Below the pieces are notes generated by a model. It had not been told where the DNA came from. It ran no database searches and worked only from the letters and a program-made list of their open reading frames with translations. A DNA stretch of 64,000 nucleotides, taken from assembly GCF_000426185.1 (NCBI RefSeq), contig NZ_AUEW01000011.1:62001-126000 (forward strand). Direction: 5' to 3'. Position 1 is the first letter of the stretch, and the number at the start of each line of letters is the position of its first letter. Below are positions 13,543 through 19,830 of the stretch, one piece after another. The stretch comes from Cellulomonas sp. URHD0024 (GTDB lineage Bacteria; Actinomycetota; Actinomycetes; Actinomycetales; Cellulomonadaceae). A program made the position numbers and the translations under genes.

Positions 13543-13605
13543 ATGGATACACCCACGGATACATTGCTGGATCCGGCCCGTCCGGGCCGTAGGTCGCAGC
13601 CATGA
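13543..13605 (+). CDS. 20-codon leaderless upstream ORF overlapping the importer ATPase
   Basis: ATG 13543 to TGA 13603-13605; 20 residues starting MDTPTDTLLDPARPGRR. Its stop overlaps the ATG of the ATPase gene (13602) as ATGA. The ATPase start lacks a good Shine-Dalgarno sequence. A hairpin CGGCCCG/CGGGCCG (13574-13589) lies inside the ORF just before the ATPase start and would be opened by ribosomes translating the leader. This is the same layout as the purN leader ORF. It could be chance; comparison with relatives would decide. Confidence 0.45.
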   Translation: MDTPTDTLLDPARPGRRSQP

Positions 13606-15152
13606 CCTCGGATGCCGTCGCCCGCGCGGAGTCCCGCGTCGGGAAGCCCACGGCACTCCTCGAGGTGCGCAGCCTCACCAAGCGCTTCGGCGAGGTGCTG
13701 GCGAACTCGGACGTGGACCTCACGGTCATGCCCGGCACCGTGCACGGCCTCATCGGCGAGAACGGGGCCGGCAAGAGCACGCTCCTGAAGATGATCTACG
13801 GCGTCTACACCCCGGACGAGGGGCGGATGTTCGTGGACGGCAACCTGGTCGCCCCCGGGAACCCCGCCGACGCCCGCGGCCTCGGCATCGGCATGGTGTT
13901 CCAGGACCTGAGGCTCGTCCCCGCGCTCACCGTGGCCGAGAACATCGCCCTCGCCCTCCCCGACGGCCCGACCCTCAAGCTCAGGGCGCTGTCCGCCAAG
14001 ATCGAGGCGGCGTCCAAGGAGTTCGGCCTCGCCGTGGACCCGACCGCCAAGGTGCGGCACCTGTCGATCGGGGAGCGGCAGCGCGCCGAGATCCTCAAGG
14101 TCCTGATGACCGGGGCGCGGCTCGTGATCCTCGACGAGCCCACCAGCGTGCTCGCACCGCAGGAGGTCGAGGCGCTGCTCACGGTCGTGGCCTCGCTCCG
14201 CGACCAGGGGCTCGGCATCGTCCTCGTGACGCACAAGCTCAACGAGGTCCGGGCGATCGCCGACCAGGTGACGGTCCTGCGCGGTGGCCAGGCGGTCCTC
14301 ACGTCCGCCGACCCGAACGACTTCTCCGACGAGGAGCTCGTCGAGGCGATGGTCGGTCGGCGCGTTCCGCCGTTGTCGCGTGTGCGTCAGCCCGTCCCGG
14401 CGAGCGAGCGCGCGGTCCTGGAGCTGCAGGGCGCCACCGCGCTCGGCGACCGCGGGTACGTCGCGCTGAAGGGGGTGGACCTCGAGGTGCACCCGGGCGA
14501 GCTCGTCGGCGTGGCGGGCGTCGCGGGCAGCGGCCAGAAGGAGCTGTGCGAGGTCGCGCTCGGGCTCCGACCGGTCTCCGCAGGGTCGGTGAGGGTCGGC
14601 GACTCGCCGGCGTCGGGGCTCGGTCCGAGCGAAGCGATCGCCGCCGGGGCCGTTGCGATCCCGGAGGACCCGGTCGCGGACGCCGTGGTGCCTGGGCTCT
14701 CGGTGCTCGAGCACATGGTGCTGGACGGTCGCGAGGTCCCACGCCGCGGCTTCGGTATCGACTGGCAGGCCGTCGACGCCCGGACCACGGCGCTCGACGA
14801 GCGGGTCGGTCTTCGCATGGCGCCCAAGAAGCGGACGCTCGCGTCCCTCTCCGGAGGCAACATCCAGCGGGTGCTCCTGACGCGAGAGCTCGGCCAGGAC
14901 GCCACGCTCGTCGTCGCCGCCTACCCGAGCCGCGGGCTCGACGTCGCGAACACGCGCCGCACGCAGGAGGTGCTGCTCGAGCACCGTGCCCGCGGCGCGG
15001 CCGTCCTGATGGTGTCCGAGGACCTGGACGAGCTCATCTCTGTGGCCGACCGGATCGCCGTCATGCACGACGGTCACCTGGTCGGCGTCATCGAGACCGC
15101 CGGTGCGGACCGGATGTCGATCGGCCGACTGATGCTCGGAGGCGTCGCATGA
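13602..15152 (+). CDS. BMP-type ABC importer, double ATP-binding protein
   Basis: The 516-residue ATPase has two ABC domains in one chain, as in sugar and nucleoside importers of the NupA/YufO type. Domain 1: Walker A GENGAGKST (near residue 52), signature LSIGERQRAEILK, Walker B LVILDEPTS. Domain 2 (from about residue 265): the degenerate Walker A GVAGSGQKEL and signature SGGNIQRVLLTREL, with AAYPSRGLDVA at the Walker B position, all usual for the second half in this family. It overlaps the next gene by ATGA. Partners are two permeases and a BMP lipoprotein downstream. Confidence 0.92.
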   Translation: MTSDAVARAESRVGKPTALLEVRSLTKRFGEVLANSDVDLTVMPGTVHGLIGENGAGKSTLLKMIYGVYTPDEGRMFVDGNLVAPGNPADARGLGIGMVFQDLRLVPALTVAENIALALPDGPTLKLRALSAKIEAASKEFGLAVDPTAKVRHLSIGERQRAEILKVLMTGARLVILDEPTSVLAPQEVEALLTVVASLRDQGLGIVLVTHKLNEVRAIADQVTVLRGGQAVLTSADPNDFSDEELVEAMVGRRVPPLSRVRQPVPASERAVLELQGATALGDRGYVALKGVDLEVHPGELVGVAGVAGSGQKELCEVALGLRPVSAGSVRVGDSPASGLGPSEAIAAGAVAIPEDPVADAVVPGLSVLEHMVLDGREVPRRGFGIDWQAVDARTTALDERVGLRMAPKKRTLASLSGGNIQRVLLTRELGQDATLVVAAYPSRGLDVANTRRTQEVLLEHRARGAAVLMVSEDLDELISVADRIAVMHDGHLVGVIETAGADRMSIGRLMLGGVA

Positions 15153-16342
15153 CCCAGGAGGCGCAGGGAACGAGCGGCACCGGCACGGAGACGGGCGCCG
15201 GGACGATCCCGGAGCCGGACACCGAGGTCAGCACCGTGTCTGCCGACGAGACCGCGGCCGTGGCCGCTGCGATCGTCGCGACGGCACTGCCCGCCGAGGT
15301 CCCGACCGACCGAGGGCCCAAGATCAGCGCGGGATGGTCCACCGGCCTGCGGTGGTTCGTCGCGCTGCTCGCCGGGCTGATCCTGTTCGGCGCCTTCGTG
15401 CTCGCCAACGGTGCGGACCCGATCCAGGTCTACGCGGACATCTGGACCTCGACCCTCACCCAGTCGGGCCAGTTCCAGCAGATCATCCTGCGGGCCGCGC
15501 CGATCGCCCTCGCGGGCCTCGCGGTCGTCGTCCCCGCCCGGGCGGGTCTCGTGAACGTGGGCGGCGAGGGGCAGCTGATCATCGGTGGGATCGGCGCGGC
15601 CGCGGCCGCCCTGTGGCTGACGCCGCTGATGTCGCCGTGGGTCGTGGTGATCGCGATGATGCTCTTCGCGATGGTCGCCGGGGCGCTCTGGGCGGGGATC
15701 GCGGCAGCCATGCGGCTCGTGGTGAAGGTCAACGAGGCCGTCACGACGATGCTCCTGAACTACGTGGCCCTCTACACGATGCTGTTCCTGATCCTGGGCC
15801 CGTGGAAGGACCCGAAGGCGCTCGGGCAGTCGACGAGCGTCGAGCTGAACGACGCCGCCAAGCTCCCGGTGATCGCAGGAACCCAGATCCACATCGGCGT
15901 GATCATCGCGGTCGTCGCGGCCTTCGCCGTCTGGTTCGCCCTCACGCGCACCACCTGGGGCTTCCGCCTGTCGGTGGTCGGTGGCAACGGGGAGGCCGCC
16001 CGACGGGCCGGCATGCCCGTGGTCACCCTGATCCTCACCGCGCTGCTCCTCGGCGGCGCGCTGGCCGGGCTGGCGGGCTTCGTGCAGTTCGCGGGCATGG
16101 AGTACAAGCTGCGGCCGACCTTCGGCCTGACGATCGGCTACGTGGCGTTCCTCGCCAGCTGGCTGTCGCGGCACAAACCCTTGCCGCTGCTCCTCGCCTC
16201 GGTCGTCCTCGCCGCCATCGCGGTGTCCGGGAACAGCCTGCAGATCAACTCCGGTCTGCCGGCAGCGAGCGTGAACATCCTCATGGGCCTCCTGCTCGTC
16301 GCCGTCCTCGGCTGGACGAGCCCGCGAAAGGCGACATCATGA
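15149..16342 (+). CDS. BMP-type ABC importer, permease 1
   Basis: Inner-membrane permease of 397 residues. The first 65 are a hydrophilic Thr/Glu/Ala-rich head, then about nine or ten transmembrane helices with the family region PARAGLVNVGGEGQLIIGG and VKVNEAVTTMLLNYVA. It belongs to the YufP/NupB-like branch of the BPD_transp_2 family. ATG 15149 overlaps the ATPase stop, and its own stop overlaps the second permease start, so the three genes are translationally coupled. The long head is atypical of the family. Confidence 0.9.
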   Translation: MTQEAQGTSGTGTETGAGTIPEPDTEVSTVSADETAAVAAAIVATALPAEVPTDRGPKISAGWSTGLRWFVALLAGLILFGAFVLANGADPIQVYADIWTSTLTQSGQFQQIILRAAPIALAGLAVVVPARAGLVNVGGEGQLIIGGIGAAAAALWLTPLMSPWVVVIAMMLFAMVAGALWAGIAAAMRLVVKVNEAVTTMLLNYVALYTMLFLILGPWKDPKALGQSTSVELNDAAKLPVIAGTQIHIGVIIAVVAAFAVWFALTRTTWGFRLSVVGGNGEAARRAGMPVVTLILTALLLGGALAGLAGFVQFAGMEYKLRPTFGLTIGYVAFLASWLSRHKPLPLLLASVVLAAIAVSGNSLQINSGLPAASVNILMGLLLVAVLGWTSPRKATS

Positions 16343-17250
16343 TCATCGATCTCCTCGCCGGAGCCGTCCGCGGCGGCACGTCCATCATGTACGCGGGCCT
16401 GGGGGAGACCATCTCCGAGCGTGCCGGCATCATCAACCTCGGCACCGAGGGGTCGATGCTTCTCGGCGCGCTGGGCGGCTACGCGGTCACGGCGCACACC
16501 GGGAACCCGTGGCTCGGGGTGCTCGGCGGCGCGATGGCCGGTGCGCTGCTCAGCCTCGTGCACGCGGTCCTCGTCGTGAGCCGCGGAGCCAACCAGTTCG
16601 CCAGCGGCTTGACGCTCTACTTCCTCGCGCTGGGCGTCACCGCGCTCTTCGGCGTCGACTACGTCAGCCGGCAGATCAACTCGTTCACGCCGTACGCGGT
16701 ACCGGGGCTGTCGGACATTCCGGGCCTCGGGCCGATCCTGTTCGACCACGACCCTCTCGTCTACATCGCGTTCGTCGCGGCACCGATCATCTGGTGGGTG
16801 CTGTTCCGCACACGGGTCGGCCTGCTGGTCCGGACCGCCGGCGAACGCTCCGAGGCCCTCGGCGTCAACGGCTACTCGATCAAGGCCGTCCGGTACTGGT
16901 CGACCGTCGCCGGTGGGGCGCTCGCCGGGATCGGCGGGGCGCACATCTCCATCGCCTACGCCAACAGCTGGTTCGAGAACATGATCGCCGGCCGGGGGTT
17001 CATCGCCGTCGCCCTCGTGATCTTCGCGATGTGGAACCCGCTGCGCATCATGGCCGGCGCCTACCTGTTCGGTATCGCGCTCTCCCTGGCCTCGGTGCTC
17101 CAGACGGCCGGCTACGCGGTGAACCAGTTCGCGCTGGCCGCGGTCCCGTTCGTCCTGACCCTCGTCGTCCTCGCTGTCCTGGGCAAGCGCACGATGCTCG
17201 CCGCCCCGGACGAGCTCTCCAAGGTCTTCGACAACAGTCGAACCGCCTGA
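16339..17250 (+). CDS. BMP-type ABC importer, permease 2
   Basis: Second permease, 303 residues, about nine transmembrane helices, YufQ/NupC-like. It carries the family region LGETISERAGIINLGTEG at residues 21-38 and RTAGERSEALGVNGYS near residue 165. It overlaps permease 1 by four bases (ATGA). The lipoprotein gene follows after 35 bases with its own ribosome binding site. Confidence 0.9.
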   Translation: MIIDLLAGAVRGGTSIMYAGLGETISERAGIINLGTEGSMLLGALGGYAVTAHTGNPWLGVLGGAMAGALLSLVHAVLVVSRGANQFASGLTLYFLALGVTALFGVDYVSRQINSFTPYAVPGLSDIPGLGPILFDHDPLVYIAFVAAPIIWWVLFRTRVGLLVRTAGERSEALGVNGYSIKAVRYWSTVAGGALAGIGGAHISIAYANSWFENMIAGRGFIAVALVIFAMWNPLRIMAGAYLFGIALSLASVLQTAGYAVNQFALAAVPFVLTLVVLAVLGKRTMLAAPDELSKVFDNSRTA

Positions 17251-17285: not shown

Positions 17286-18446
17286 ATGCGGATCCGACGT
17301 ACAGCAGGCGCCCTGATCGCCGCGGCGGTGGTGGCGATCCTCGCCGCCTGCAGCCCCGCGGTCTCCGACGACGACCCCGGCAGCTCGTCGGCAGCCACGT
17401 CCTCCGACGCGGCACCGGGCAAGGACGCGACGACGGTCGGCGTCATCGCGGTCGGTCCGAAGGACGACTTCGGGTACAACCAGGCCGTGTACCAGGGTGT
17501 CGAGGCGCTCCGGAAGAACTTCCCGAAGATCAAGGTCCTCGACGCCTACAACATCCCCGAGGACGACACGGCCGCGACGACGATGGAGAGCATGATCGCG
17601 CAGGGCGCGACGATCATCTTCGCGACGAGCTACGGGCACCTCGATGCGGCCAAGCAGGTCGCTGCGGAGCACCCTGACGTCGTCGTCGTCCACCAGGGCG
17701 GTCTGCTCGACGACCCGGCGCCGGCCAACATGGGTTCGTACTTCGGCAGCGTCTACGAGCCGGTGTACCTGGCCGGCATCGCGGCGGGCGCCGCCACGAA
17801 GACCGGCAAGCTCGGCTACGTCTACGCCATCCCGATCCCGCAGACGCTGGCCAACATCAACGCCTTCACGCTGGGCGCACAGTCGGTGCGACCCGACGTC
17901 GAGGTCACGGCCGTCTCGACGACCAGCTGGTGCGACCCGGCCACGCAGGCCGACCGCGTGCAGTCGCTGCTCGGCTCCGGCGTCGACGTGGTCACGCAGC
18001 ACCAGGACTGCACCAAGACGATCATCGAGGCCACCGAGGCCGCCGGCGCCTACACGGTCGGCTACCACGCGGACGCGTCGTCGCTGGCGCCGAAGGGCTG
18101 GCTGACGGGTTCCGAGTGGAACTGGGGCCCGCTCTACTCGGACATCGTCAAGACCGCGGTCGCCGGTGACTTCACAGGCAGCGACTACAACGCGAACTAC
18201 CGCGCGAACATGGCCAGCGGCAAGAACCCGTTCGTCGCCTCGAAGTTCGGACCGAGCGTCACGGACGCGACCAAGGCCCTGATCGCCGACGCCGCCAAGA
18301 AGATCGAGGGCGGCGGCAGCCCGTTCACCGGCCCGATCACCGCGCAGGACGGCACGGTCAAGGTGGAAGCCGGCGTCACCCCGCCGATCGAGACCATCGA
18401 GCAGATGGACTACTTCGTCAAGGGCGTCACCGGCACCATCTCCTGA
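17286..18446 (+). CDS. BMP family substrate-binding lipoprotein
   Basis: The 386-residue protein starts with a lipoprotein signal peptide ([17 protein letters not shown], then ILAACS with the lipobox Cys at about residue 22) and a Ser/Asp linker, then a Bmp/PnrA-like periplasmic-binding fold ([36 protein letters not shown]). Family members bind nucleosides, but this branch lacks the classical DxxFN nucleoside signature, having DDFGYN instead, so another ligand is possible. GGAAGG lies six bases before the ATG. Strong hairpin after the stop. Neighbouring hydrolases hint at a urea-like or amide ligand. Confidence 0.9.
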
Positions 18447-18452
18447 CCACCG

Positions 18453-18490
18453 CCCCGGGGTCGGCCTCGTCGAGGTCGGCCCCGGGGTTT
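18453..18490 (+). terminator. hairpin between lipoprotein and hydrolase genes
   Basis: Arms 18453-18469 and 18471-18487 can pair over up to 17 bases (two wobbles, inner pairs must open for a loop), followed by TTT. It lies inside what looks like one operon, so it may be a partial terminator that keeps lipoprotein mRNA high relative to the hydrolases. Confidence 0.75.
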
Positions 18491-18511
18491 CTCCCAGACC
18501 CGAGGGGAACC

Positions 18512-19105
18512 ATGAGCCCGTACGTCAACGCCACGACGCCGTACCCGTGGCCCTACGACGGCGACCTCGGCGGCGCGCAGACGGCGCTGCTGGTCGTCCT
18601 GACAGCGGACGCCGGTGCCGCCTCCCAGGACATCGCCGCGCAGCTCGAGTCCCTGGCCCACGCGGTCCGTGCGGCCGGCGGGACCGTGATCGTCGTGCGC
18701 ACCACCGCGCCGCCGCCCGGCGGCTCCCGCCTGCGCGAGCCGGTCACGGCGTCCCAGGATCTGCCCGGCCTGCTGGTCCCGGACATCGACATGGTGGCGG
18801 GCGGAGTCGACGGCTACTACGCCAGCGACCTGGACATCGTGCTCCGCACAGGGCGGTATCGCCGGCTGATCCTGGCCGGCGTCGGCCTCGAGACCTGCGT
18901 CCACTCGACCATGCGCGACGCCAACGACCGCGGCTACGAGTGCCTGCTGGTCGTCGACGCCTGCGTGCCGATCGACCCCTCCCTGACCGGTGCCTCGGTG
19001 TCCAGCATCGAGATGTCCGGCGGCATCTTCGGTGCGGTCGGCCTGACCGCCGAGGTCGTCGCCGCCCTGATCCCTGTTCCTGCGCTCACCCCTGGAGACC
19101 TGTGA
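18512..19105 (+). CDS. catalytically degenerate isochorismatase-like (cysteine hydrolase fold) protein
   Basis: A 197-residue paralogue of the next gene: both share a YPWPYDG head, a YASDLD/YATDLD segment and the [13 protein letters not shown] helix. The cysteine is kept (GLETCVHS, C129), but the catalytic Asp of the strand (D41 in the partner) aligns with L30, and the catalytic Lys (K147 in the partner) aligns with a Val/Ala/Gly stretch near residue 96; the protein has no lysine at all. About 45 residues of the substrate-loop region are also missing. Likely a non-catalytic subunit or partner of the active hydrolase. GAGGGGA precedes the ATG; the stop overlaps the next start (TGATG). Confidence 0.85.
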
Positions 19106-19830
19106 TGACGACCGACCAGCTCACCACCGCCACGGACGTCGCCTTCGGGCCGGTCGAGGCGGAGCCGTACCCGTGGCCGTACGACGGCAGCTTCTCCCCG
19201 TCGACGACGGCGATCATCAACATCGACTGGCAACAGGACTTCTGCGGTCCGGGTGGCTACGTCGACGCCATGGGCTACGACCTCAACCTCACACGCGCCG
19301 GTCTGGCGCCCACCGCGGCGATGCTCGAGGTGGCCCGCGAGCTGGGCTTCCACGTCATCCACACGCGTGAGGGCCACCGCCCGGACCTGTCCGACCTGCC
19401 CGCGAACAAGCTCTGGCGGTCGCGACGGATCAACGCGGGCATCGGCGACTCGGGCCCGTGCGGTCGCATCCTCACGCGCGGCGAGCCCGGCTGGGAGATC
19501 GTCCCGGAGGTCGCACCGCTGCCCGGCGAGGTCATCATCGACAAGCCCGGCAAGGGCTCGTTCTACGCCACGGACCTGGACCTGATCCTGCGCTCCAAGG
19601 GGGTCACGCACATCATCCTGACCGGCATCACCACGGACGTCTGCGTGCACACGACCATGCGCGACGCCAACGACCGCGGCTACGAGTGCCTGCTGCTGTC
19701 CGACTGCACGGGCGCGACCGACTACGGCAACTACCTGGCCGCACTCAACATGGTCAAGATGCAGGGCGGGGTCTTCGGCGCCGTGGCGGACTCCGCCGCG
19801 CTGCTGGCGTCCTGGGAGAACCCGCTCTGA
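19105..19830 (+). CDS. cysteine hydrolase, biuret amidohydrolase (BiuH)-like
   Basis: The 241-residue isochorismatase-fold amidohydrolase has the full Asp-Lys-Cys triad: D41 ([10 protein letters not shown]), K147 ([10 protein letters not shown]) and C180 (TTDVCVHTT). Long stretches ([59 protein letters not shown]) agree with what I remember of characterised biuret hydrolases, so biuret or a close ureide is the best guess; ureidoacrylate or N-carbamoyl amides are alternatives. It is coupled by a one-base overlap to its degenerate paralogue and sits downstream of the BMP importer, suggesting import and hydrolysis of a small nitrogen-rich amide for nitrogen supply. Confidence 0.85.

Follow-up and report, generated by a model that had tools for sequence, protein, structure and literature searches.

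A catalytically dead paralogue encoded beside biuret hydrolase in many soil actinobacteria probably changes the substrates of its active partner

Organization of the biuret hydrolase locus in Cellulomonas sp. URHD0024

The subject of this study is a pair of adjoining genes in a 64,000-nucleotide stretch of the Cellulomonas sp. URHD0024 genome (contig NZ_AUEW01000011.1, positions 62,001 to 126,000; hereafter the window, in whose numbering all coordinates are given). The first gene of the pair (18512..19105, forward strand) encodes protein A, a degenerate isochorismatase-like protein of 197 amino acids that resembles biuret hydrolase (BiuH) and appears to be catalytically dead; the second (19105..19830, forward strand) encodes protein B, of 241 amino acids, which we assign to BiuH. 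Base 19105 is common to the TGA of A and the ATG of B. Our analysis suggests that this dead sister of BiuH, which stands next to it in many soil actinobacteria, probably fits into BiuH and changes the substrates that it accepts.

Upstream on the same strand lie the genes of an ABC importer. A BMP-type substrate-binding lipoprotein (17286..18446), identified through Pfam family PF02608, has AtzT as its nearest solved structure. An earlier note on this DNA, made from the letters and open reading frames alone, had given the coordinates and frames of this gene, A and B together with the one-base overlap between the latter two, and all of these are right. The putative ATPase (13602..15152; BMP/nucleoside type) is named at the family level only, because its best NCBIfam match, NF047930, gives 413.6 bits, below the cut-off of 670. 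Permease 1 (15149..16342, 397 amino acids) has a start that overlaps the ATPase stop by four bases, and is named by its position; at the corresponding position, other loci carry PF02653 permeases. Permease 2 (16339..17250, 303 amino acids) overlaps permease 1 by four bases; a resemblance to permease NF047928 (178.9 bits, below the cut-off of 465) covers its C-terminal 277 residues.

Between the lipoprotein gene and A, folding energy calculations predict a 17-pair hairpin (18452..18488, forward strand). The surrounding region, 18447-18511, has a minimum free energy of -43.6 kcal/mol (z -3.9), and the hairpin was not picked up by a terminator scan. It is a possible candidate for a processing or attenuation element, and may reduce the expression of A and BiuH relative to that of the binding protein.

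Protein B has the features of BiuH; protein A has lost its catalytic residues

Protein B scores 416.2 bits against the NCBIfam equivalog NF050097, for which the cut-off is 370 bits, and its nearest entries in the Protein Data Bank (PDB) are 6xjm and 6azo. It carries the D41, K147 and C180 triad and the cross-subunit residues Q220 and V223. Judged by sequence and residues B is a biuret hydrolase, in agreement with the full triad and the likeness that the earlier note had described.

Protein A scores 105.5 bits on NF050097, far under the cut-off, and its triad is incomplete, with Leu30 at the position of the catalytic Asp, Ala96 at that of the Lys and Cys129 at that of the Cys; by both measures it lies outside BiuH. 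Val99 occupies the position of the second active-site lysine (Lys145), and there is no lysine in the entire protein. These observations bear out what the earlier note said of Cys129, the leucine and the missing lysines; its statement that no residue stands for the catalytic Lys is corrected by the alignment of that position to Ala96.

To describe the family as a whole we use the BiuH numbering of R. leguminosarum for positions from Asp36 to Val218, and count residues over 55 A and 85 BiuH proteins, with the cut or masked A of loci L015, L109 and L139 and the BiuH of L109 omitted. Asp36, Lys142, Lys145 and Cys175 are all kept in 85/85 BiuH, the lysine at 145 being present in B of the window as in the others. 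In A, Asp36 is kept in 2/55, Lys142 and Lys145 in 0/55 and Cys175 in 12/55. The same counts for the triad, together with a glutamine at the place of Gln202 in none of the 55, set A apart from the triuret hydrolase TrtA. The substrate loop, noted earlier as shortened, is deleted: the positions of BiuH Tyr47 and Tyr53 are gaps in 54/55 A.

Despite these losses a complete isochorismatase-like domain is predicted for A. The protein matches Pfam isochorismatase PF00857 with an E-value of 8.6e-18, and its structural model has a pLDDT of 91.1 and a predicted template modelling (pTM) score of 0.88. A search of the PDB with this model returned 140 matches at E <= 0.001, the best of which is BiuH (6azn, E 7.2e-16).

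The ratio of nonsynonymous to synonymous substitution (omega) was estimated for both genes in eight Cellulomonas pairs. For A it is 0.17-0.36 in seven pairs and 0.63 in the most divergent; for B it is 0.04-0.15 in seven and 0.34 in the most divergent pair, so that the ratio of A to B runs from 1.8 to 9.3. These values indicate that purifying selection acts on A as well, less strongly than on BiuH but clearly. No internal stops were found among the 12 A matches of the Cellulomonas genus scan.

A recurs beside BiuH across Actinomycetota and is fused to it in some genomes

Within the genus, A is present in 12 of 81 genomes, and the order BMP-A-BiuH is seen in 11; in the twelfth (G035) the BMP gene stands before an A that is truncated by the contig end. 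The junction of A and BiuH in the 11 genomes is a 4-base overlap in seven, the 1-base overlap in the window and a gap of 15-26 bases in three. A family sample of 221 genomes contains A in 14, which are the 12 of the genus and two more. In an order sample of 396 genomes BiuH exceeds the cut-off in four, and A adjoins it in 4/4; the phylum sample, also of 396 genomes, has three that carry A, every time beside BiuH.

We also scanned 84,980 named genomes for BiuH and took the best 80 of at least 552 loci, these being the loci most like the BiuH of the window. Among these 80, A adjoins BiuH in Cellulomonas, Demequina, Nocardioides, Microbispora, Acrocarpospora, Actinomadura and Jatrophihabitans, as well as in a Frankiaceae bin and several Acidimicrobiia bins. 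In the samples searched for A, it was found only together with BiuH. In a tree from a short search with 31 A rows, A forms a single clade across Actinomycetota, apart from BiuH and TrtA (SH-aLRT 99); its placement relative to TrtA is unsure because of its long branch. A chance association is rejected by the recurrence of A across the genus and the phylum. The earlier note had allowed for a degenerate copy peculiar to this strain and under relaxed selection; the phylum-wide clade, and an omega below 0.4 in seven of the eight pairs, speak otherwise, and its picture of a retained pseudoenzyme linked to both a working paralogue and an importer holds well beyond this strain.

In three metagenome-assembled genomes A and BiuH are fused in frame, in four open reading frames (ORFs; L114, which is cut at its start, L132, L151 and L220, the last being a second fused frame within the L151 genome). 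Identity with L151 is 56% for L132 and 66% for L114, which are thus not copies of one contig; to judge from their names, all three bins stem from one sampling project. An apparent fusion at L109 was dropped as an artefact of a stretch read as N. At the level of sequence the fusions support a physical linkage of A and BiuH, and favour the hetero-oligomer that had been proposed from the window alone, the pairing itself being something that we infer.

A is found in those sampled BiuH genomes that lack TrtA

The whole genomes of 77 of the best 80 loci were searched for the BiuH family, with L081, L082 and L084 left out. A is present in 49 of these and a TrtA-like protein in the other 28, with none holding both and none holding neither. 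The TrtA-like proteins score 249-283 bits; those of Frankia, and some others, are identified by score alone and not by residues. A search through all 28 TrtA genomes detected no A. A adjoins BiuH in 48 of the 49 A genomes; in the 49th (L147) BiuH lies at a contig end and A is 265 bases from the end of another contig, an arrangement that a contig break between the two genes would give.

A class sample of 394 genomes, which overlaps in genomes with the 77, has 34 with BiuH: seven with A, 24 with a TrtA-like protein, none in which both were seen and three with neither, where the absence of A from the 24 was read from the flanks of 20, the remaining four not having been checked beside BiuH. Outside the 77, neither partner accompanies BiuH or a BiuH-like protein in five genomes (L161, L163, L171, L193 and L195, in genomes G659, G610, G670, G1219 and G1239, respectively); the first three, which are those of the class sample, have BiuH over the cut-off, and the last two, from the phylum sample, are classed as BiuH-like, the cut-off having been applied to the first three. 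The degenerate copy therefore does not always accompany the active one, a point that the earlier note had proposed to check: BiuH is without A in 28 of the 77 named genomes, all of them with a TrtA-like protein, and in these five. BiuH of Rhodococcus sp. Mel is described as a biuret and triuret generalist in a strain with no TrtA (PMC7948467), and this strain may belong with the genomes that have neither partner.

Mapped onto a tree of the 77 BiuH, A switches state six times, with TrtA opposite to it in 6/6; examples are found in Frankiaceae, in Ferrithrix-like Acidimicrobiia (L156, L160) and in Acrocarpospora. Acrocarpospora catenulata (L142) has a TrtA-like protein and no A, and three other Acrocarpospora (L109, L116, L141) have A and no TrtA; this is a recent switch.

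The BiuH partners were also compared between 56 loci without TrtA and 20 actinobacterial TrtA genomes, and no active-site column stands out as a signature specific to A. The clearest column of the well-conserved core is Cys114 (R. leguminosarum numbering), which is Cys in 54/56 of the loci without TrtA against 7/20 of the TrtA genomes within Actinomycetota.

The strip of A that aligns with the BiuH cross-subunit residues is nearly invariant

The active site of BiuH is completed by Gln215 from the neighbouring subunit, and in simulation Val218 and Gln215 of that neighbour gate the main tunnel (PMC5806882). The Gln215Ala change raises the KM for biuret from 79 to 2073 uM, about 26-fold, and the Gln215 variants tested lost most of their catalytic efficiency (PMC5806882). 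In TrtA the equivalent Gln202 is likewise donated by the other subunit, and its position is reported to be key to the choice of triuret over biuret; E160 and I205 are among the residues that surround it (PMC7948467).

In A the strip aligned to 214-221 has a mean entropy of 0.10 bits, compared with 2.24 bits for its own active-site positions and 1.93 for the remainder. Columns identical in at least 53 of the 55 A number 27, and only three of them differ from a residue that is fixed in 85/85 BiuH: Asp173 to Glu, Gln215 to Ser and Val218 to Ile, each in 55/55 A. In the window the strip is the motif MSGGIFGA at residues 168-175 of A, with Ser169 and Ile172 as the changed residues. The three columns match E160, Q202 and I205 of TrtA, and the Glu and Ile that are present in 55/55 A are the TrtA state, found in 21/21 of the TrtA-like proteins checked. 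The earlier note had left open whether A regulates its partner or binds a ligand; the invariant Ser and Ile, by our inference, point to the active site of the partner.

Three helices are described for the BiuH dimer. One of these, 178-186, is conserved in A (0.45 bits), and is the only one of the three that is.

The importer and the pathway are alike at A and TrtA loci

The window lipoprotein scores 137.2 bits on PF02608 (cut-off 24.1) and is closest to the AtzT structure 6pi5 (E 1.9e-57). It keeps the ring clamp of AtzT as Y64 and W215 and its serine as S115, and three hydrogen-bonding residues of AtzT are replaced, by Q186, H239 and D241. AtzT binds guanine (PMC6834077); the changed residues make guanine an unlikely ligand of the window protein. 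The ligand-site residues Tyr, Ser, Tyr/Phe, Gln, Trp, His and Asp are common to the window, 49 A-loci (one of them gapped at the Tyr) and 8 TrtA-loci that span three phyla.

Allophanate hydrolase is matched (E up to 1e-60) in all 12 A-bearing Cellulomonas genomes, 11 of them over the cut-off and one as a fragment, and in 35 of the 69 Cellulomonas without A (31 over the cut-off). In the genome of the window it lies on another contig (C2:237931-239559). Among the 80 loci, an allophanate hydrolase neighbours 56 (40 A, 16 TrtA) and a GntR-type regulator 38 (25 A, 13 TrtA), each neighbour family being named from one representative. From these comparisons the pathway looks alike on the A and TrtA sides. 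Clusters of biuH, trtA and atzF with a BmpA-NupABC importer have been reported in ammonia oxidisers (PMC12625717), so that the link between importer and hydrolase drawn in the earlier note was already in print for nitrifiers; the dead paralogue is not described in the parts of that paper drawn on here.

Several other genes were seen around these loci. Some loci without A have an ORF of 600 amino acids with a membrane-protein-like sequence between TrtA and BiuH. At L125 (5367-6989), and as clustered ORFs in other TrtA-BiuH loci, the intervening protein is hydrophobic and transporter-like, and is possibly the importer of those loci. Neither this protein nor the 600-residue ORF gave a Pfam or NCBIfam match at E 0.001. 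A clustered gene, which in L110 encodes an alpha/beta hydrolase of 249 amino acids between BMP and A, recurs in seven A-loci (L107, L110, L113, L117, L122, L124 and L127) and in no TrtA-locus. Four Cellulomonas (L016-L019; G010, G003, G077, G078) have a TrtA-like protein with no BiuH-A pair and no allophanate hydrolase match at E 1e-60, and their TrtA-like protein may thus serve another route. A gene for 1979 amino acids downstream of BiuH in Cellulomonas was considered as a urea amidolyase and rejected, as in L083 it is a pullulanase.

Discussion

We propose that A pairs with BiuH as a non-catalytic subunit, lends residues to its active site and thereby replaces TrtA, a proposal to which we give an even chance. 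Retaining the fold of BiuH and some of its dimer face, A would dock against BiuH such that its invariant SGGI strip enters the BiuH active site where a second BiuH would place Gln215 and Val218. The altered or widened pocket would let the importer-fed pathway run without TrtA, with the A:BiuH site most likely taking triuret or another substrate longer than biuret, the BiuH:BiuH site taking biuret, and allophanate hydrolase completing the breakdown. Since it is the neighbouring subunit that supplies the residues probing the distal end of the substrate, self-pairing and pairing with A could give two enzymes from one BiuH. In its most specific form, in which BiuH with BiuH is a biuret hydrolase, BiuH with A is a triuret hydrolase and lineages have switched several times between this design and a dedicated TrtA, the proposal is tentative, and we hold it to be less probable than its negation.

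A number of observations weigh against this proposal. The 80 loci are those most like the BiuH of the window. By record title, metagenome bins account for 35 genomes in the A group of 49 and 10 in the TrtA-like group of 28, and as so many A genomes are bins the missing TrtA could reflect incompleteness; the genomes not labelled as metagenome-assembled keep the same split (14 A, 18 TrtA-like). The five genomes with neither partner indicate that BiuH needs neither. Only one of the six switches between A and TrtA falls on a strongly supported branch and the sign test is without power, so common descent may account for some of the exclusion. Of the BiuH dimer helices, 95-102 is missing from A, which fills 1/8 of its columns, and 202-213 is variable (entropy 1.88), and as a result the A:BiuH face cannot equal the BiuH:BiuH face; the AlphaFold model of the L151 fusion (pTM 0.55, from 24 rows of which only three cover the BiuH half, where it is poor) shows no docking. 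Glu173 sits in the dead pocket of A and not in that of BiuH, and the invariant Ser could equally serve an A:A dimer. Single residue swaps between TrtA and BiuH never converted one enzyme into the other (PMC7948467). Finally, the rise in KM of Gln215Ala implies that an A:BiuH site should be poor on biuret, which is compatible with a new substrate and with simple inhibition alike.

The main rival to the proposed pairing for a new substrate is that A inhibits or regulates BiuH. Here A would lower or tune the activity of BiuH, for example by displacing the Gln215 donor, and no new substrate would be gained. The fusions, the adjacency and the invariant cross-subunit strip fit this equally, as does the loss of efficiency in the Gln215 variants of BiuH; it leaves unexplained why the sampled A genomes are those without TrtA, and why A has the TrtA-like Glu and Ile, and we consider it unlikely. 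It may instead be that the exclusion of TrtA is an ecological or phylogenetic coincidence and that A retunes BiuH for some other compound, such as carboxybiuret or a product of purine breakdown. The single well-supported switch and the guanine bound by AtzT, the nearest solved importer protein, are in keeping with such a coincidence. We regard it as a rather doubtful account, as the importer ligand residues are alike in TrtA and A loci and the three fixed changes fall at positions linked to the choice between biuret and triuret.

Two further explanations dispense with the partnership. A might be an independent homodimer that makes no contact with BiuH and acts as a sensor or reservoir of biuret or triuret, or catalyses by an unknown route; it folds well alone in the model and is under purifying selection. 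With its own pocket so variable (2.24 bits), its position beside BiuH in 3/3 of its occurrences in the phylum sample and the A-BiuH fusions, this seems improbable. The loss of the catalytic residues, and an omega that exceeds that of B in all eight pairs, would be expected of a BiuH duplicate in decay. We reject this as most improbable: A is one clade over the phylum, its strip is near-invariant, its 12 Cellulomonas matches are free of internal stops and purifying selection is evident.

That a pseudoenzyme can act as partner to its active paralogue is an established idea. What distinguishes the present case is that residues linked to substrate choice by the crystal structures of BiuH and TrtA sit on the dead subunit. 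They are the only fixed differences between A and BiuH, and this offers an unusually sharp and cheap test of how a dead subunit can set the choice of substrate. The question bears on the degradation in soil of triuret and biuret, which are impurities of urea fertiliser; if the proposed pairing is correct, genomes scored as without a triuret hydrolase may hold one in two halves. Neither a dead paralogue of BiuH nor a hetero-oligomeric form of the enzyme came to light in a search of the open-licence literature.

Comparison with known systems

By sequence and residues B is a member of the BiuH group represented by the enzymes of Rhizobium leguminosarum 3841 (PDB 6AZO) and Rhodococcus sp. Mel (PDB 6XJM). 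Protein A shares with these the fold, the PYPWPYDG head, a helix segment of 13 residues and the GG-FGA strip; it differs in mostly lacking Asp36 and usually Cys175, in being without Lys142, Lys145 and the 44-58 loop, and in having Ser, Ile and Glu for Gln215, Val218 and Asp173. With TrtA of Herbaspirillum sp. BH-1 (PDB 6XIX) it has in common the states of Glu160 and Ile205. TrtA is active, and carries the Asp24-Lys129-Cys162 triad together with Gln202; in A the Asp is almost always lost, the Lys always and the Cys in most members, and a Ser stands where TrtA has the Gln. A forms a separate clade and, in the genomes sampled, takes the place of TrtA with BiuH. The window lipoprotein has the same Tyr-Trp clamp and Ser as AtzT of Pseudomonas sp. 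ADP (PDB 6PI5), but Gln, His and Asp in place of Glu165, Asn218 and Asn220. The clusters reported in nitrifiers (PMC12625717) bring together a BMP-type importer, BiuH and allophanate hydrolase as is seen here; those of ammonia-oxidising bacteria and comammox include a putative TrtA, with no dead paralogue named in the parts of that paper drawn on.

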